DNA from: a virus
Reading direction: 5' to 3' (one strand)
Length of the DNA stretch: 40,709 nucleotides
IMG/VR virus record: IMGVR_UViG_3300044675_004707
Coordinates: 1-40,709 of that record
Made by a program: the position numbers and the translations under genes
Notes under the pieces: model-generated
What the model saw: only the letters and a program-made list of their open reading frames with translations
The model's database searches: none
Told to the model about the DNA's origin: nothing
Shown: in pieces, positions 1-40,709 of the stretch
How the letters are laid out: each line of letters opens with the position of its first letter
Numbering within the stretch: position 1 is the first letter of the stretch

Positions 1-54
1 ACTGCTACGAGGCCCTGATCGCCCATTCCGCTGTCACCCCTCCCACGGGAACAC
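1..54. repeat. Terminal overlap, left copy
   Basis: These 54 bases are identical to the last 54 bases of the window (40656-40709). The gene interrupted by the right end continues in frame from here, so the contig closes into a circle. The length is about that of an assembler k-mer overlap, so a circular or circularly permuted genome is likelier than a true short terminal repeat of the virion DNA. Confidence 0.9.
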
Positions 55-7788: not shown

Positions 7789-10700
7789 ATGGCCGCTCCC
7801 TCGCAGGACGAGCTGGCCGCGCTCGATTACATCGGACCCGTCGAGGCGTCCGGTCAGGCTCAGGCACCCGCCGCCCCCGATCCTCTCTCGGAGCTGGAGT
7901 ATCTCTCACCCCTTGACGCCAGGGAGAATCCTCCCCTTGTCGCCGTGGACCGCTCCGGCGCTCCGCTTGATCCTGCCAAGGCGGGCTTCGCACCCGAGGG
8001 AACCGACCCCCTCTCACCGGCCAATCGCTGGAATGAGAAGTCGGCACCCTACAAAGTCACCTCGGCCGGAATCGAGCTAGATCCCCTCCGCTACGGAGCC
8101 GGTGTCCAGTCTGCCTACGCCGCTGGCCTGATCGACCAGGCCACCTTCTCCAAGCTCTCTTCCAACGCCGCCAAGATCGAGGAGACCGCACGCCGCCGCC
8201 GCGATCTGGAGGCCACGGCCGGATCCTCCCCCGAGGGGAAGGCCCTCCTCTACGGAGCAGGCCGGGGTGGAGCCGTGACGATGGGATTCCTGGGTGGCGC
8301 CGCCATCCCCGCTGTAGCCGGGATGGCTGCCGGTCCCGTCGCCCTGATCACCGGTACCGCCGGAGGCATCGCGGGAGGCTATGCCGCAGGCAGGGGATAC
8401 GATGCTCTCTACAAGACACTGGCCGAGAATGACTCGGAGTTCTCCAGCTACCTCGCAGCCAGCGAGGCCCGACCCGGATACAATGCGGCCGGTGAGCTGG
8501 CCTCCATCGCCATCACCGCCCCCGCCGCCCCCTACAATCTGATCAAGGGGATCCAGCTTGTGCGCGAGACCAAGGGTGCGCTCGAAGCCGCCAAGTTCGC
8601 AGGCAAGGTCGTCGGACTCGGGGCCGGCACCGGTGCCGCCACCGACATCACCTGGAGGCTGGCCGATCAGGCGCTCGCCTCCGGGGATGAGACGCCAGAG
8701 GGCCCGACCTTCCAGTCCTCCTTCCAGTCCGCCGTCATGGGGGCGCTCCTCTCGGGGCTCACCGTCCAGAACAAGCGCTATGAGATGGGCGACATCCAGT
8801 CACTCGTCTCCAAGAAGCAGGCCGGTGAATCCCTCTCTCCCATGGATGAGGAGGCGGTCTCCACCGCGCTCCGCGTCACCGACGCCGTCCGGGGTGAGTA
8901 TGGTCCCGCCGCCCGAGGCACCATGCGGATGCAGGGCACTTCCTTCCTGGGCAAGCCCGAGGCGCTCAAGACTGAGGTGGCGCTCGGAGAGGGAGTTGAG
9001 GGTCGAGGGTCGAGAGTCGAGGGCCTACCGGGACAACCTCCATCCCCGGCACCCGCTGATCTGGGTGAGCTGATCCCGATCGAGGATGCACCGAGCGGGG
9101 CCTTCACCATGGATCGGAACAATGCCGTTCCGGCCAACACTCCCGATGGCGTGATCGCCATGGGTGGCCAAAGTGAGAGACCCGGCCTTCCTACCACCTC
9201 TGGGGAAGAGAGAAGAAGTACCCGAGCCCGACCACCTATATCAAGCGGTGGCAACCCTATCAGCCCTGAGCAAGCGGATTTTAACAAACAATTTTTATTG
9301 TCGGGAGTGGTGCATCCTTCGTTGACATCAAGTTATGCAACGGACTTTCCAAATTCAGCAGCGTATTACGCGGAGCAACCGCAAGCTATAGGAGCCCCTA
9401 ATCCTGGACGCACCGATTCAGGTGTTGTGCGGGTTTTTGCCAGGTTGGGATCAACCCCGGCAACACCAAACGAGTTTATATTACCAAATGGCGCCGAGCC
9501 TGTAATGGAATTTACGCCAACGGAAATCAGGCAAGGTAAGCATATACAATGGTTTGCTCAACAATCCGCCGCTAAGCCGCCAGCTCCCGCCGATGACTTG
9601 GCTGAGTTGACTCCGGCCAGCGACACTCCGGCACCCGTCATTCCTTCCGTTCCCGAGACCCCCTCGATCAGCTCGATCGTCTCGGAATATCCCGTAGTCG
9701 AGACGCCCCTCGATCAGATCACCCTCTCGGAGGATGTCCCCAACTTTAAGAAGAATGCCAGCGGATCCACCGGCGTCGTCCAAGGCAACGAGCTGGCCGG
9801 GAAATACAACCGGCTCGGCACGGGGAACATCGTTCTCTGGCAACGACTTAACGGAAATCTGGAGGTGATCTCCGGACGCCACCGGCTCGATCTGGCCCGA
9901 CGCACGGGTGAGAAATCCATCCCCTCGCAGGTCGTCCGGGAGGCCGATGGATTCCTAACACAGGACGCAATGACCCTAGACGCGGAGCTCAACATCCGCG
10001 ATGGTCAAGGTGAGGTCAACGACTATGCAACCTACTTCAGAAACAGCAACATCGACCAGCCAGCAGCAGAAGCGGGAGGCCTTCTGGCAAGAGCGAAAGG
10101 CCGTTCCGGCTGGGCGCTTGGCAAAAGTGCGAGCGATGATCTCTACGCGCTCTACCAGTCCGGAGGGATCAAAGAAGCCCAAGCAGTAACAATCGCCCAG
10201 GCAGCCCCGGGAGATGCCGAACTCCAGCGGGCTGGCATCAATGCTGCCACCAAGCGGAATCTCTCCGGGGATGCCCTCACTGGCTACCTGGGATACATCC
10301 GCGCCAGCAAGGATCTGGCCGCTCAGGGATCCCAAGGGGATCTCTTCGGGACCAGTGACGCCGCCCTACAGAAGGGTGAGGAGATCGCCAAGGCCGCCGC
10401 TGCTAAGGTGCGCGAGATCAATGAGCAGATCGCCGCCGTCCAGTCCGCGGCCAAGCGTCCCGCCGCCGCCGCAAAGCTGGGCGTCAATGTCAAAGACCCG
10501 GAAGCAATCCTCAACCGCGTCGCCGAACTCCAGCAGCTCGCCGCGAGGTACAAGTCATTCTACACCGATCCGGAGATCATGGCCGAACTCTCAGGCGTCT
10601 CGCCCGAGCAGGCCGCCGCCGAGATGGCACCTCCGGCACCGGCTACCCCCAACATCGCCACCAATGGGGAGGGGAATCTCTTTGCTCCTGCCGACATGCC

Positions 10701-13700
10701 CTTCAGCCTGACCGGTCAGGTAGCTTCTGAACCGACCCCCGCCGAGATCGCCGAGGCCGAGCGCCAGCGTCTTGCCCAAGAGGAAGCCGACCGCAATCAA
10801 GGGGATATGTTCTCGGGGGGATTCTCAGGCACCGCCGACTACGGCCCGCAGGGTGGATCTCGTGGAGCCACTGCCGCCGATCCCTCCATCCCCAAGGAGG
10901 CCACGGTCATGTCAAGAGGCCCCGGATGGGAGATGCCCGAGGTCCTCGGTGCCACCGACCGAGTGCTCCCCATCGAGGCACCCGAGCTAATCCGATGGTT
11001 CCGCGAAGCCACCGGCATGTCACCCGAGGTTCGCCGCCGGATGAAGTCGCTGGGTCTCTTCTACCCTGTCGGCAAGGGACGCATTGCCCTCCGCGCCTCT
11101 CTCTTCTCCAATCCCCAATCAGTCGCCATGACCCTCGCCCATGAGATCGGCCACTGGATCGACTATCTCCCCGACGAGTCTCTCAAGCGCGGGAATATCC
11201 TTGGCAGGCTGGCGACGCTTTCCAAATTCAAGAGCAACCTTCTTCCTGAGATAGGGGGATCGAACAAGGAGATCCGCGCCGAGCTGATCGCTCTCTCCGA
11301 CTGGTGGAAGCCGTTCGGTGCCGAGACGGCCAGCAAGAAATCGAGCTACTACAAGTATCGTGTGAGCGCCGTAGAGCTCTATGCCGATGCTATCTCGGTC
11401 CTCTTCAACTCTCCGGCTGATCTGGAAGCCCGATCCCCTAAATTCTGGAAAGCATTCTTCGACCTCGTGGATCGGAAGCCGGAGGTGGCCGAAGCCATCG
11501 CTGCCATCCAGACCTTTTTAGCCAAGGGCCCCGAGGCCGTCAACCGGACCCGGCTTGCCGAGTCGAAGGCTGGCTATGCCAAGGCCAGCGAGCTGGTCAA
11601 GCGGCGCTCCGCCGCCATGAAGGCATGGGCCAAGTCACCCATCCGTCTCTGGGAGCGGGCCAAGGATACCTATTACTTCTACGCCCAGCCAGCCATCGAG
11701 CTCATGCACCAGAAGCGCCGCTCCGGCCAGCCCCTCAAGCCGGAGGATCGGATGGACTGGCTCTTCGAGGAGATGCCGCTGGCCAACTCCAGCGTGCAGG
11801 CCGATCTCATGGAGATCACGGCCAAGGTCTCCCCCATCCTGCAATCCGTCGGCCTGACCGATGATGACCTGGGGATCTACCTAGAGAACTACCGCATCGC
11901 CAATGAGCGGATCGAGGTGGAGCGCCAAGTCGGCAAGGCCAGCGAGCAGGAGAGTGAGATCGAAGTCACCGGCCGGACGGTCATTGCCAATCCCGACGGC
12001 AAGGATCCCGTCATCGCCCAGGCTCTCCTCGACCAGCAGCGTGCCGACATATCACCGGAGCAATGGAGCGCCCTCCAGCAGGCAGCCGAGGCATTTCACG
12101 ATAAGATCTTCTCGGTCCTCTCGGAGGCTGTCGATGCGGGGATCATCTCCCGGGAGATCTACGAGACGCTCCTGGTCCCGAACAAGGATGCCTACGCCAC
12201 CTTCACCCCGCTGAAGTATGCCGACCGCTATGTCCCGGCCGGGATCGTGAAGCAGGTAGGGACGCTCGACCAGGTCGCCAATCCCTACACGCAATCCGTC
12301 CTGAAGATGGCGGCCATGCGCCGCGCCGCCCAATCCAATCAAGCCAAGGCTACCTTCTTTAACTGGATGAAGGAGAACTTCTCCGGGATGATCCGGGATG
12401 CCGAGATGCGCTGGGATGGCCGCCGCAATGTGCCGGTCCCGACCCGCGAGGTGGGGTGGAAGACGCTCACCTACCGCGTGGACGGGAAGCTCCGCGGGGT
12501 CCACCTACCGGAGCGCTATGCGGATGTCTTCGAGTCGATGAGTCCCTCCCACCAGGACGGGCTGATGCAGGCGCTCTCCTTTCTCTGGAGCTCGGCCGCC
12601 TACCCGCTCATCATCAAATACAATCCCTCCTTCCAGCTCGCCCTCTCCCCCATGCGCGATCTGCTCCGCACGATGCGGAATGCCCCGGACAAGACCCGTG
12701 GGAGGATCCTCGGCCAGCAGGCCTATCAGCTTGCCCTTGCCATGCTCCAACCGCAGGGGCGCGAGGCTCTCTCTACGACCGCCGGGGGCGTCGTCGGCAC
12801 CGCTGTCGGATCGACCATCGGATTCGTCGGGGGTCCCGCCGCGGCCGTGGCCGCCGGTCAAGTGGGGAGCTATGTCGGAAGCGCCATCGGCATGGCCATC
12901 GGGAAGATGCTGGCCGCGATCCCGGTCAACATCGGATCATCCCCCCTGGTCAACCGGATCTCCGGCCAGGCCGATGATCTCCTGATCGAGATGCTCCAGA
13001 ACGGGGCGATGGTGGGGCCGCACGAGTCCTTCTACGCGACGGCCGATTCCCACGGTGCCCTCGGTGACATCCTCCGCCAATACAATATGCTCCCGGCCGA
13101 GGATCAACCGGCATGGTCCCGCAAGTGGTTCGTCAAGCCGGTCCTCTCCTACCTGCGCTCGATCCAGTTTGCCGGTCAGATCATGGAGGCTCTCCCCAAG
13201 GTCTCGGCCTACAAGGTGCTCGCCAAGGATCTCGGCTGGCCAACCCGTGAGGCGGCCGCCTATGTCCGCAACTACATGGGCGTCCCTAACTACATGAAGA
13301 AGGGGAACGGGATCTCGACGCCGGGGATTCTCTTCCCCTTCATCAATATCACGATGCGCTCCTGGGAGTCCTCGATGAAGCTCCTCGCCGGACGGGAGAA
13401 GGGGCGCAAGTCGCAGGCCGACTATCTCCTGAGCTATCTGTTCTTCGGGGGATTCCTGACGACGGTGATGACGGTCCTCGCCAGGGAGGGATTCTTCGGG
13501 GATGACATGGCCGGGATCTTCCGGAAGATCCCCGACCGCGATGTCTATGCCTACCACTCGATCCCTGTCGGCACCACGACCACGGGTGACTATGGCTCGA
13601 AGACGGCCTATTTCCGCTGGCCTGTCGATGAGGTGGACCGCGCCATCAATGGGATGGTCTATTACGGCCTGACCTCGACGCTCCGCCAGCTCAAGGGGGA

Positions 13701-14343
13701 GAAGACGGGAATCGGCCTCGGCCAGATCATGGCCGTTCCTCAAGGGGAACTGCCCTCGCTCAACCCCTTCCTCTCACTGCCGGCCAAGTGGGCCACCTAT
13801 GCCGCCGGGATGAATCCGATCGACGAGCACCGCGGTCGCTCGATCCTGACCGATGACGAGCTGAAGGCGGGAGGCTGGCCCGCTGCCAAGAAGATGGTCA
13901 TCCATTCGCTCGACAAGATGGGTGTCTCTAACTTCCTGCGCTACGATGAGAAGAGCAACACGGTCTCGGAGTTCGCCGTCTCCTCGACCGCCCCGATCAA
14001 CCGATTCCTGAAGATCACCGACGCCGGGGAGTCTGAGCGTGACCGGGACGAGGTGGCCGGTGAGGAGAAGGCAATCGCCCAGGTCCGCGTCGATCTCTCT
14101 GAGGATGTCCGCACCGCGACCCGCGAATACTCATGGCTCCAGAAGCTGGCCGAGAAGCGGACGCCTCAGCAGACGCTCCGCTTCGCTGTCCTGAAACAGT
14201 GGAACAGTCAAATCTACCGCCCACAGATCGAGGCGATGCGCTCCGCTGTCGAGAAGGGGGATGTCGCCGCCGGTGCCCGATCCGTCCGCACAATCAACGG
14301 GATCACCGACGGGATGAAATCAGCCTGGGCAAAGAGCCGATAG
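7789..14343 (+). CDS. Giant polyvalent virion protein with ddrB-ParB-like and zincin domains
   Basis: This encodes 2184 residues. Seen: two Gly/Ala-rich hydrophobic stretches (about residues 155-210 and 268-295); a repeat-derived linker (400-415); an AT-richer inserted segment (484-598); and a ParB-like core (about 634-840) with LDQITLSEDVPNFKK and SGRHRLDLARRTG, which matches the ddrB-ParB type. A HEIGH zinc motif follows at 1118-1122 with Glu1196 in SAVELYADA as likely third ligand. A long helical region contains a glycine-zipper membrane stretch (about 1663-1714), and a C-terminal part (YNPSFQLALSPMRDLLR, then FPFINITMRSWESSMK) resembles large polyvalent-protein-associated domains. Polyvalent proteins of this kind are thought to enter the cell with phage DNA and protect or process it. 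The position fits a T7 gp16-like ejected protein with a channel-forming segment. No lysozyme or RNA polymerase motif seen. Confidence 0.8.
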   Translation: MAAPSQDELAALDYIGPVEASGQAQAPAAPDPLSELEYLSPLDARENPPLVAVDRSGAPLDPAKAGFAPEGTDPLSPANRWNEKSAPYKVTSAGIELDPLRYGAGVQSAYAAGLIDQATFSKLSSNAAKIEETARRRRDLEATAGSSPEGKALLYGAGRGGAVTMGFLGGAAIPAVAGMAAGPVALITGTAGGIAGGYAAGRGYDALYKTLAENDSEFSSYLAASEARPGYNAAGELASIAITAPAAPYNLIKGIQLVRETKGALEAAKFAGKVVGLGAGTGAATDITWRLADQALASGDETPEGPTFQSSFQSAVMGALLSGLTVQNKRYEMGDIQSLVSKKQAGESLSPMDEEAVSTALRVTDAVRGEYGPAARGTMRMQGTSFLGKPEALKTEVALGEGVEGRGSRVEGLPGQPPSPAPADLGELIPIEDAPSGAFTMDRNNAVPANTPDGVIAMGGQSERPGLPTTSGEERRSTRARPPISSGGNPISPEQADFNKQFLLSGVVHPSLTSSYATDFPNSAAYYAEQPQAIGAPNPGRTDSGVVRVFARLGSTPATPNEFILPNGAEPVMEFTPTEIRQGKHIQWFAQQSAAKPPAPADDLAELTPASDTPAPVIPSVPETPSISSIVSEYPVVETPLDQITLSEDVPNFKKNASGSTGVVQGNELAGKYNRLGTGNIVLWQRLNGNLEVISGRHRLDLARRTGEKSIPSQVVREADGFLTQDAMTLDAELNIRDGQGEVNDYATYFRNSNIDQPAAEAGGLLARAKGRSGWALGKSASDDLYALYQSGGIKEAQAVTIAQAAPGDAELQRAGINAATKRNLSGDALTGYLGYIRASKDLAAQGSQGDLFGTSDAALQKGEEIAKAAAAKVREINEQIAAVQSAAKRPAAAAKLGVNVKDPEAILNRVAELQQLAARYKSFYTDPEIMAELSGVSPEQAAAEMAPPAPATPNIATNGEGNLFAPADMPFSLTGQVASEPTPAEIAEAERQRLAQEEADRNQGDMFSGGFSGTADYGPQGGSRGATAADPSIPKEATVMSRGPGWEMPEVLGATDRVLPIEAPELIRWFREATGMSPEVRRRMKSLGLFYPVGKGRIALRASLFSNPQSVAMTLAHEIGHWIDYLPDESLKRGNILGRLATLSKFKSNLLPEIGGSNKEIRAELIALSDWWKPFGAETASKKSSYYKYRVSAVELYADAISVLFNSPADLEARSPKFWKAFFDLVDRKPEVAEAIAAIQTFLAKGPEAVNRTRLAESKAGYAKASELVKRRSAAMKAWAKSPIRLWERAKDTYYFYAQPAIELMHQKRRSGQPLKPEDRMDWLFEEMPLANSSVQADLMEITAKVSPILQSVGLTDDDLGIYLENYRIANERIEVERQVGKASEQESEIEVTGRTVIANPDGKDPVIAQALLDQQRADISPEQWSALQQAAEAFHDKIFSVLSEAVDAGIISREIYETLLVPNKDAYATFTPLKYADRYVPAGIVKQVGTLDQVANPYTQSVLKMAAMRRAAQSNQAKATFFNWMKENFSGMIRDAEMRWDGRRNVPVPTREVGWKTLTYRVDGKLRGVHLPERYADVFESMSPSHQDGLMQALSFLWSSAAYPLIIKYNPSFQLALSPMRDLLRTMRNAPDKTRGRILGQQAYQLALAMLQPQGREALSTTAGGVVGTAVGSTIGFVGGPAAAVAAGQVGSYVGSAIGMAIGKMLAAIPVNIGSSPLVNRISGQADDLLIEMLQNGAMVGPHESFYATADSHGALGDILRQYNMLPAEDQPAWSRKWFVKPVLSYLRSIQFAGQIMEALPKVSAYKVLAKDLGWPTREAAAYVRNYMGVPNYMKKGNGISTPGILFPFINITMRSWESSMKLLAGREKGRKSQADYLLSYLFFGGFLTTVMTVLAREGFFGDDMAGIFRKIPDRDVYAYHSIPVGTTTTGDYGSKTAYFRWPVDEVDRAINGMVYYGLTSTLRQLKGEKTGIGLGQIMAVPQGELPSLNPFLSLPAKWATYAAGMNPIDEHRGRSILTDDELKAGGWPAAKKMVIHSLDKMGVSNFLRYDEKSNTVSEFAVSSTAPINRFLKITDAGESERDRDEVAGEEKAIAQVRVDLSEDVRTATREYSWLQKLAEKRTPQQTLRFAVLKQWNSQIYRPQIEAMRSAVEKGDVAAGARSVRTINGITDGMKSAWAKSR
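8993..9027. repeat. GAGGGTCGAG repeat translated in frame
   Basis: GAGTTGAGGGTCGAGGGTCG and GAGAGTCGAGGG are consecutive imperfect units read as a Gly/Val/Glu/Arg-rich linker in the polyvalent protein. It resembles a dispersed intergenic microrepeat captured by the gene. Confidence 0.6.
9240..9585 (+). other. AT-richer domain insert within the polyvalent protein (possible ART-like fold)
   Basis: About 345 bp, clearly lower in GC and with different codon use (ttt, tta, aaa, caa, gtt) from both flanks, codes for about residues 484-598. Visible motifs: PEQADFNKQFLLSG, SSYATDFPNSAAYYAE, GVVRVFARLG, NEFILPNGAEPVMEF. The order (a serine-tyrosine-threonine turn followed by an AAxYA helix, then a VVRVxxRL strand and an N-x-F-I-L-P strand) recalls phage-encoded ADP-ribosyltransferase-like domains, but key residues cannot be confirmed by eye. 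It is flanked by Pro-rich linkers. Confidence 0.55.
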
Positions 14344-14402: not shown

Positions 14403-14702
14403 TTACCGCTGGCGGTTCCGCTGGCCAGCGGGAGGGTTCGCAGTCGGGACGATGAAGGTCACGTCGCCTATCTTCTGGATGTAGGTGGGGCCTCGATCCT
14501 TGTAGATGACGCCGGATCCCTTCCCGTCTCCGACGACAAAGGCATTCCGCCCATTGTCATTGATCTGCTGGACGCCGCCGGTGCTCTGTCCGCCGACGAT
14601 GGTGGCGATCCCGACATCTTCCAAATCGCAGTCCTGGGCTGCACAATTCATTGCAGAAACTGCAAGGATGAGGGTGGCTAGGATGGTGGTGGTTGTCTTC
14701 AT
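14403..14702 (-). CDS. Small exported protein of the lysogeny block
   Basis: This encodes 99 residues. A signal peptide is clear: MKTTTTILATLILAVSAMNCAAQ, with probable signal-peptidase-I cleavage after CAA or AAQ; a lipobox is not well formed. The mature part is small and beta-rich (IATIVGGQSTGGVQQIND, VVGDGKGSGVIYKDRG, VTFIVPTA) with an Arg/Gln-rich tail. The start overlaps the integrase stop in an ATGA arrangement, so it is coupled to integrase. Position at the end of the leftward unit and export make it a candidate lysogenic-conversion gene. No family recognised. Confidence 0.65.
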   Translation of the reverse strand: MKTTTTILATLILAVSAMNCAAQDCDLEDVGIATIVGGQSTGGVQQINDNGRNAFVVGDGKGSGVIYKDRGPTYIQKIGDVTFIVPTANPPAGQRNRQR

Positions 14703-15955
14703 GGGGTGGGTGTGGTTGGTGGTGGTGTGGTGGCTGGTAGTCCGTAGATATTCAGGAGATCGCTCGGCTTGGCGCTCCGTACTCCCTTCAACTCCTTGGC
14801 ATAGTATTTCGTGACGGTGACAACGGAGGCGTGCCGGAGGGTATCCCTGGCGGCGTCGGATCCGTGGACCGTGTAGATGAGTGAACCAGCCCAGCGCCTC
14901 AGCTCATAGGCTATCTTCCTACGACCTTTAATTAGATCGCGCATGGCGTCGTTAATCCCTCGTTCGCAGATCTTGAATCGCTCGGTCTTGTTCTTGGCCG
15001 GGACGATATGGGTGCAGGTGTCGCAGGGGAGTGGATCTCCGTTCTTGTCCATGCTGATCTCGTGGGTGCAGGTGGTCGGCCTGAATGTCCGGAGATGCTG
15101 CCAGAGGTCATCGCTGATCTCGACGGGTGCCGGGATGGCCTCGGCGTACTGGCCGACGACGCGGAGGTAGCGCTTGCTCACCGGCTTGCCCTCTTCGTAC
15201 TCGACTCCCTCGCTGATGTCGCTCCACTTGGCCCGCGCCACTTCGTTGTTGCGTAGCGCCAGCCTGGACATGAAGACGTAGACGATCCAAAGAGGGGAAC
15301 GCGCTTTCAGCAGCTCATTGCCTTTGCTCTCCCAAGCGATCACTTCTTCTCTTGTGGGGGGAATGAATCCCGCTTCACGATCGCCCTTGAAGTCTCGCTT
15401 GGCCCGGAAGCCGTCGAGGTTCGGGAGGATGAGGCCCTTGTAAAGTGACATGACCTTCGGGCTCACGATGCACCGCGCCTGGGTAATGGAGGCATGAATG
15501 CTGTGGTCGGGTCGGCCTTTGGCTCGTTCCTTGGCAATATAGCTATCGAGGGTCTCCTCGCTGAGGATCGAGGAGGAGAGCACTCGAGGGTCATCCTTGC
15601 CGGTGACGACTCGCAGGAGGGTCTCCATGGCGGAGATGTAGTTATTCCTGGTGGCTGGTGCGATGTCCCGCCCGGCTGCCATGTAGCGGTCCAGGATCTC
15701 GCCAACGGTGGCGAGGCCGGTAGTCGAGGCCGTCACGGGTTTCTTGGGCGCTTTCTTCCAGTCGTTCTTCTCCAGCCGGTCGAGCTCCACCTTGGCCTGC
15801 TTGACGGCATGATCTTTCAGGGTGGTCCCGAGGGTCTTCCAGATTGCCCGGCCATCCCGACGGAGACGGAGATAGAGATTGTCCCCACGCCTCCAAAGCG
15901 TGTAGCTTTTGCCCCGGTGAATAACGACGATCTCGGATCTCTCTGCGGTGCTCAT
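14699..15955 (-). CDS. int: Tyrosine-family site-specific integrase
   Basis: This encodes 418 residues. An N-terminal arm-binding or core-binding helical part (about 30-200, including GEILDRYMAAGRDIAPATRNNYISAM) is followed by a catalytic domain: Arg235 in RLALRNNEVARAKW, Y350-E-L-R353 in the place of the usual HxxR, Arg374-His375 in LRHASVVT, and nucleophile Tyr384 (or 385) in TKYYAK, nine residues after His375. Tyr in place of His in the HxxR box is tolerated in many integrases. A small Cys cluster (about 290-305, THEIS.CDTCTH) looks like an extra zinc loop inside the catalytic domain. AAGGA precedes the start. The attP site lies directly upstream. Confidence 0.93.
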   Translation of the reverse strand: MSTAERSEIVVIHRGKSYTLWRRGDNLYLRLRRDGRAIWKTLGTTLKDHAVKQAKVELDRLEKNDWKKAPKKPVTASTTGLATVGEILDRYMAAGRDIAPATRNNYISAMETLLRVVTGKDDPRVLSSSILSEETLDSYIAKERAKGRPDHSIHASITQARCIVSPKVMSLYKGLILPNLDGFRAKRDFKGDREAGFIPPTREEVIAWESKGNELLKARSPLWIVYVFMSRLALRNNEVARAKWSDISEGVEYEEGKPVSKRYLRVVGQYAEAIPAPVEISDDLWQHLRTFRPTTCTHEISMDKNGDPLPCDTCTHIVPAKNKTERFKICERGINDAMRDLIKGRRKIAYELRRWAGSLIYTVHGSDAARDTLRHASVVTVTKYYAKELKGVRSAKPSDLLNIYGLPATTPPPTTPTP

Positions 15956-15968
15956 GGTAATGGTTCCT

Positions 15969-16004
15969 TGCTACGCCCCAACCTGCTACACGTTCTGCTA
16001 CACG
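15969..16004. repeat. Left integrase arm-type sites
   Basis: TGCTACGCC (15969-15977), TGCTACACG (15984-15992) and TGCTACACG (15996-16004) are direct repeats overlapping or adjoining the integrase promoter region, so integrase may regulate its own expression by binding here. Confidence 0.65.
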
Positions 16005-16106
16005 TCAAGCAGGTTAAGAATGGTGGTCTCTGGTGGGTTCAAGTGGGAACGATTTGTAGCATCGTACAGAGAGAAATGAGGGAATTGTCAACCTTCACAG
16101 AGTAAC

Positions 16107-16145
16107 GCCGCTTTAGCTCAGTCGGTAGAGCATCTCATTCGTAAT
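16107..16145 (+). other. 5' half of tRNA-Thr(CGU), attachment core
   Basis: Starting GCCGCTTTAGCTCAGTCGG, this contains the acceptor 5' strand (GCCGCTT), the D-arm (GCTC, AGTCGGTA, GAGC), the anticodon 5' strand (TCTCA) and the loop TTCGTAA with anticodon CGU. After T16145 the sequence no longer pairs with the anticodon stem (TCATC instead of TGAGA) and there is no T-arm. It is therefore a half tRNA, not a gene. Strand exchange would fall in the anticodon loop or stem of the host tRNA-Thr, and the phage copy would replace the tRNA's 5' half. Confidence 0.85.
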
Positions 16146-16173: not shown

Positions 16174-16194
16174 TGCTACGCGTTTTGCTACACC
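16174..16194. repeat. Right integrase arm-type sites
   Basis: TGCTACGCG (16174-16182) and TGCTACACC (16186-16194) have the same orientation and 12-bp spacing as the inner left pair. Confidence 0.65.
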
Positions 16195-40195: not shown

Positions 40196-40709
40196 ATGAA
40201 ATCAACCTCCTACGAAAAGATCCTCACCGGTGTCGCCGCCCGCATGGGCCTCGACCCCTCGGCCACCCTCCAGACCTCCACCCGCGCCGCCCTCACGGAG
40301 TACCTGAACTCCCGCATCTCCATCGCCTGGGAGTGGGATCGCTGGCCGGAGCTCTGCCGCATCGAGCAGCGCACCGCCGAGCTGGATGGTGACTCGCTCT
40401 ATCTCTCCTACGAGCAGGCGGGTCAGGAGCCCTTCGGCGAGATCTTCGGGATCTACCTGGATGATCCCGACAAGACACTCACCCCCAAGGAGCTGGGATA
40501 TTCCCTGCGCGACGATCGGATTCTGCTTGACCCCGATCTCGCGGTGACGGACGTATGGGTGCACTATCGCCTCCGTCCCTACCAGTACGGCGCGGTGTCA
40601 TGGAGCGCGGCAACTTCCTATGCCGCCGGGGACATCGTGCGGTTCACGGACGGCCACTGCTACGAGGCCCTGATCGCCCATTCCGCTGTCACCCCTCCCA
40701 CGGGAACAC
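40196..40709 (+). CDS. Junction gene, N-terminal part (probable tail/head-tail adaptor with carbohydrate-binding-like module)
   Basis: The gene starts at ATG 40196 and runs off the right end; joined across the overlap it continues to 257 and gives about 238 residues. YEKILTGVAARMGLDPSATL, TRAALTEYLNSRISIAWEWD is a helical module typical of adaptor-like phage proteins. A strand-rich part follows (SLYLSYEQAGQEPFGEIFGI, LLDPDLAVTDVWVHYRL), and then the carbohydrate-binding-like module (SWSAATSYAAGDIVRFTDGH and on). It would connect portal or nozzle to other tail parts or contact the cell wall. No family is certain. Confidence 0.7.
   Translation, partial: MKSTSYEKILTGVAARMGLDPSATLQTSTRAALTEYLNSRISIAWEWDRWPELCRIEQRTAELDGDSLYLSYEQAGQEPFGEIFGIYLDDPDKTLTPKELGYSLRDDRILLDPDLAVTDVWVHYRLRPYQYGAVSWSAATSYAAGDIVRFTDGHCYEALIAHSAVTPPTGT
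40656..40709. repeat. Terminal overlap, right copy
   Basis: Identical to bases 1-54. See the entry for the left copy. Confidence 0.9.

Follow-up and report, generated by a model that had tools for sequence, protein, structure and literature searches.

The stretch of DNA analysed here (hereafter the window) is a virus record of 40,709 nucleotides, IMG/VR IMGVR_UViG_3300044675_004707. It is bounded by direct terminal repeats of 54 bp, so the phage genome is complete, with about 40,655 bp of unique sequence, and carries its attP in the free form. A terminase, a major head protein, a tail fibre and DnaB are encoded, together with a divergently transcribed tyrosine integrase that adjoins the attachment site (Table 1). 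The interval 7789-14343 encodes a phage protein of 2184 amino acids without a Pfam match; two relatives, L008 and L011, have a different large protein at the equivalent place beside the integrase module.

Table 1. Coordinates of the terminal repeats and of the integrase-attP region in the window
Feature	Position	Strand	Basis or remark
Direct terminal repeat, left copy, 54 bp	1..54		repeat comparison
Divergent tyrosine integrase of 418 aa, reading away from attP	14699..15955	-	PHROG 1 integrase, E=2.3e-12
P arm, integrase start to core; would lie upstream of the rebuilt tRNA in the prophage	15956..16106		no promoter found
Putative arm-type repeat TGCTACGC, P arm	15969..15976	+	TGCTAC[GA]C search
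Two putative arm-type repeats TGCTACAC, P arm	15984..16003	+	TGCTAC[GA]C search
CAGAG..AAT-type element, approximate consensus CAGAGTNNAATCA	16067..16079	+	read by eye, attP panel
CAGAGTAAC abutting tRNA nucleotide 1	16098..16106	+	exact or near form in most attPs
attP core, nucleotides 1-39 of host tRNA-Thr(CGU)	16107..16145	+	exact host-gene match and hybrid attL in L018
Anticodon loop TTCGTAA, probable 7-bp strand-exchange region	16138..16144	+	last bases common to attP, attB and attL
Two putative arm-type repeats TGCTACGC/TGCTACAC, P' arm	16174..16193	+	TGCTAC[GA]C search
Direct terminal repeat, right copy, 54 bp	40656..40709		repeat comparison

The integrase gene is intact and starts 152 bp from the core (positions 15955 and 16107, respectively). 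No Pfam family matches its product, no match was found among cultured phages, and a comparison with XerA gives a weak, in-register match (E=0.05). The conserved residues in alignment A1 are R235, YELRR (350-354), LRH375 and Y384/Y385. The histidine of the HxxR motif is replaced by a tyrosine (YxLR), in the window protein as well as in all eight aligned relatives.

The motif TGCTAC[GA]C starts at positions 15969, 15984, 15996, 16174 and 16186, always on the + strand, and these are five of the six copies present in the 40.7 kb. Five putative arm-type repeats, placed on both sides of the core and in a single orientation, constitute a lambda-type attP layout. The CAGAG..AAT-type element of the P arm recurs in 13 attPs, as judged by eye, some 40-42 nt before the tRNA half begins. 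Among cultured phages, matches to the attP region extend over no more than about 20% of its length, and the annotated ones are mostly phage tRNA-Thr genes. The 58 bp that precede the core (16049-16106) are only 59% identical between the window and L006/L007, whereas the flanking DNA is 93-96% identical towards the integrase and 87-89% identical in the opposite direction; this portion of the arm looks like an exchangeable segment.

The core itself, GCCGCTTTAGCTCAGTCGGTAGAGCATCTCATTCGTAAT (16107-16145), is identical to the first 39 nucleotides of a tRNA-Thr(CGU), that is, to the acceptor 5' strand, the D-arm, the 5' strand of the anticodon stem, the 7-nt loop and one additional base. The match begins exactly at nucleotide 1 of the tRNA and stops one base past the anticodon loop. 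A first-pass annotation, made from the window alone, had read these bases as the 5' half of a tRNA-Thr(CGU) from which the phage then diverges, and had expected to find their identical counterpart in a host tRNA. Both points are borne out by ARAGORN, which finds complete tRNA-Thr(CGT) genes opening with the exact 39-mer in three Spartobacteria-type MAGs (L002, L004 and L005). Two of these MAGs bear the title Spartobacteria; the third, titled Proteobacteria, has a locus syntenic with L002. The 39-mer also occurs in 13 IMG/VR contigs, where no remainder of a tRNA follows it, and no complete tRNA is detected by ARAGORN in the 40.7 kb of the window. An exact 39-base match to a gene segment, recurrent across independent phages, is not to be taken for chance.

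Integration at this site can be followed in a close relative. L008 and L016 belong to one contig, which carries an intact attP and an integrase 94% identical to that of the window. L018 consists of 64 bp of host DNA, the 39-mer core and then a phage arm. It is 100% identical to the host locus L005 over 103 bp (the 64 bp plus the core); from the core into the phage arm, identity to the phage locus L016 is also 100%, over 3681 bp. With attP (L008/L016), attB (L005) and a hybrid attL (L018) all found, integration of this relative is demonstrated at the level of assembled DNA. Two other junctions are attL-like. In L063, from MAG G017, a phage-like arm follows the host promoter and the 39-mer; G017 is devoid of an intact copy of the tRNA-Thr(CGU) gene. 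L074, in MAG G008, involves another type of element (see below). At all three junctions the host 5' flank is still joined to the displaced 5' half, after which a foreign arm begins. The polarity predicted in the first-pass annotation, with the host 5' half as the displaced one, is therefore the one observed, and prophage junctions flanked by the 39-mer, which it had proposed to look for, do exist.

These junctions (L018, L063 and L074) all come from metagenome assemblies, with the shared repeat placed precisely at each join, as would be expected if they were chimeras assembled through the common 39 bp while the phage integrates elsewhere. Such an artefact is very improbable, since three independent junctions in different hosts have an identical polarity (host 5' flank, tRNA half, foreign arm) and since the attL and attR contigs of G008 differ within their duplicated 230 bp (98.7% identity). 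Moreover, the k-mers usually used last in assembly exceed 39 bp, which places the repeat below the usual final k-mer. Even less credence can be given to the proposal that the half is a phage-encoded tRNA fragment, either a decoy or a decaying tRNA gene, and not an attachment site. Complete tRNA-Thr genes do occur in some phages, but the half adjoins an integrase gene, has arm-type repeats on either side and is cut after the anticodon loop at the identical base in all relatives. Above all, an actual host-phage junction lies at this point in L018; this contradicts the tRNA-fragment proposal, which was rejected.

We consider it highly probable that the window represents a temperate phage of freshwater Spartobacteria (Verrucomicrobiota) whose tyrosine integrase recombines the anticodon loops of attP and of the host tRNA-Thr(CGU) gene, the 5' half being carried by the phage. 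A host group and an integration site are thereby assigned to a group of uncultivated phages. Following recombination between the two anticodon loops, the host promoter and its own 5' half would stay at attL, reading into the prophage. At attR, the phage 5' half and the host 3' half would form a new full tRNA beside the integrase gene. The site, its orientation, attP, attB and attL are seen in the contigs, whereas attR, strand exchange within the 7-bp loop and a working rebuilt tRNA are inferred. Predicted attRs yield a complete tRNA-Thr and predicted attLs yield none. An attR of the window type (type A) bearing the host 3' half was not found in the viral contigs by exact and degenerate searches, nor was one found in the MAGs. 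The host 3' half is likewise missing from MAG G017, in which the attL-like junction is present, probably owing to an assembly gap. A terminator in the P' arm that could act against the stranded host promoter was also sought; the signal is not above that of shuffled sequences.

Within the 13 representative attPs, the mean pairwise identity of the tRNA half is 1.00 for nucleotides 1-7, 0.97 for nucleotides 8-25 and 1.00 for nucleotides 26-39, figures that are biased upward since 10 of the 13 were first found via the exact 39-mer. Outside the half it is 0.29-0.57 upstream and 0.35-0.56 downstream. The other three (L050, L051 and L053) were recovered by a protein search with the integrase that made no use of the core. 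Their tRNA half differs from that of the window in the D-loop alone, and in two of them it matches other host species exactly. In the whole set, variation in the half is confined to two D-loop positions (TC, TT or CT), and the TC and TT variants match host tRNAs of different MAGs. The half is found beside integrases with as little as about 34% identity to that of the window. Conservation that is exact up to nucleotide 1 points to the rebuilt tRNA, and not to an integrase site, as the object of selection. If so, the rebuilt tRNA is used and would therefore be transcribed from the phage P arm. The more distant relatives L054-L056 (integrase identity 31-32%) have another core, in an attP without a tRNA half. 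Their attP regions contain a near-palindromic sequence, TCATTCGCTGAATGA in the case of L054, set between inverted AGAGTAAA-like elements.

With the 5' half (39 nt) on the phage side, integration parts the host promoter from the rebuilt tRNA. The training set of the two-box promoter model used to address this point comprised 29 tRNA genes from host G003, without Thr-CGT; dinucleotide shuffles served as background. The model detects the promoter TTGCC[AT]-N16-TAnnnT ahead of 11/11 held-out Thr-CGT genes of the hosts (p 0.00-0.05), whereas its scores for the 13 phage arms are no better than chance (mean p 0.49 for 90 bp, 0.56 for 180 bp). A model built from all host tRNA genes likewise places the P arm at chance level. 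Inspection of the P arm for the consensus detects no sigma-70 promoter either. The earlier remark that no clear sigma-70 promoter precedes the half thus applies to all 13 arms.

What the lysogen does for tRNA-Thr(CGU) can be viewed in two ways. The rebuilt tRNA would be transcribed from phage DNA, by a promoter that is likely to be weak, non-canonical or integrase-linked and that would lie within the 150-bp P arm. It is conceivable, though doubtful, that the tRNA-Thr(CGU) of lysogens is made only from a P-arm promoter not of the host type, perhaps the fixed CAGAGTNNAATCA / CAGAGTAAC element; expression from the P arm only would tie the level of a host tRNA to prophage or integrase regulation. 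The other view, which we regard as rather unlikely, is that the rebuilt tRNA is silent in lysogens, that tRNA-Thr(UGU) covers ACG and that the 39-nt identity is kept by integrase or excision binding to the D-arm. The 13 P arms without a host-type promoter are in keeping with silence. So is the presence of tRNA-Thr(TGT) in host G003, which also carries tRNA-Thr(GGT). On either view, less tRNA-Thr(CGU) should be tolerable in lysogens because tRNA-Thr(UGU) can also read ACG by wobble. However, the identity ends exactly at nucleotide 1, as expected for an RNA function but odd for protein binding; the phage changes occur only at two D-loop positions that are also variable among hosts; and the integrase relatives L054-L056 have an attP without the half. 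The site offers a clean natural example of a tRNA gene that has to be reassembled without its own promoter.

Integration with a 5' tRNA fragment is known but uncommon. Of the 3919 islands mapped by Islander, 3760 carry a 3' tDNA fragment and 159 a 5' fragment (PMC4383910), the latter amounting to about 4% of mapped tRNA islands. This agrees with the first-pass annotation, according to which the 3' part is usual and the 5' part is carried here. Anticodon-centred crossover is a common class among tRNA-targeting integrases (PMC4383910). The 5'-fragment islands resemble the window phage in that the element has the 5' part of the tRNA, the host 5' half is displaced and the anticodon lies at the centre of the crossover. 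They were mapped in complete genomes, whereas the present elements are uncultivated Verrucomicrobiota phages with an integrase lacking a Pfam match and with arm promoters tested. What is added is thus the phage group, its host, its site and a promoter test for such uncultivated phages. Standard 3'-half tyrosine integrases, for instance those of mycobacteriophages (PMC10865867), also use a common core of 30-45 bp located in a tRNA gene, which they rebuild at one junction, as is predicted here, but the polarity of the window phage is opposite and leaves the rebuilt gene without its native promoter. In tRNA-dependent lysogeny (Guerrero-Bustamante and Hatfull 2024, PMC10865867), the phage likewise copes with a disrupted host tRNA gene. 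There, a full tRNA is supplied and not rebuilt, whereas the window phage lacks a complete tRNA gene and would restore that of the host. For the archaeal pTN3, the rebuilt tRNA reportedly uses the integrase promoter, a situation described by reviewers as seldom seen in bacteria (PMC8371274). Unlike in the window phage, with a bacterial host and attP 152 bp upstream of an intact divergent integrase, the attachment site of pTN3-like integrases lies inside the integrase gene, which is split on integration (PMC8371274).

A second type of element (type B) targets the same tRNA gene. When empty, the locus has the order GT9 gene, tRNA-Thr, EngB, UvrC, where GT9, EngB and UvrC are what we take the encoded proteins to be from our own reading, made without a family search. 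Two contigs of G008, C66 (L066/L109) and C53 (L074/L110), share the 230 bp mentioned above, which run from the end of the GT9 gene through the native tRNA promoter into the tRNA itself (38 nt). The attL contig has an intact GT9 gene, and foreign DNA after the half. The attR contig has an integrase-like gene reading away, then the 230-bp copy and then the full tRNA. Type B gets round the promoter problem, since it brings a copy of the host promoter with it. The combination of a missing promoter in type A with a second integrase type that brings the native promoter to the same site is the notable feature of this locus. Since one tRNA is targeted both with (type B) and without (type A) its native promoter, the need for a host-type promoter becomes testable. 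The type-B integrase was not found in viral contigs. The assignment of the type-B gene (MKPIKL.PK..KGW; PHROG 1, E=0.006) to an integrase family is tentative, as only partial genes are available. It lies directly upstream of tRNA-Thr(CGU), and relatives of it occupy the same place in G011 (L107) and G014 (L113).
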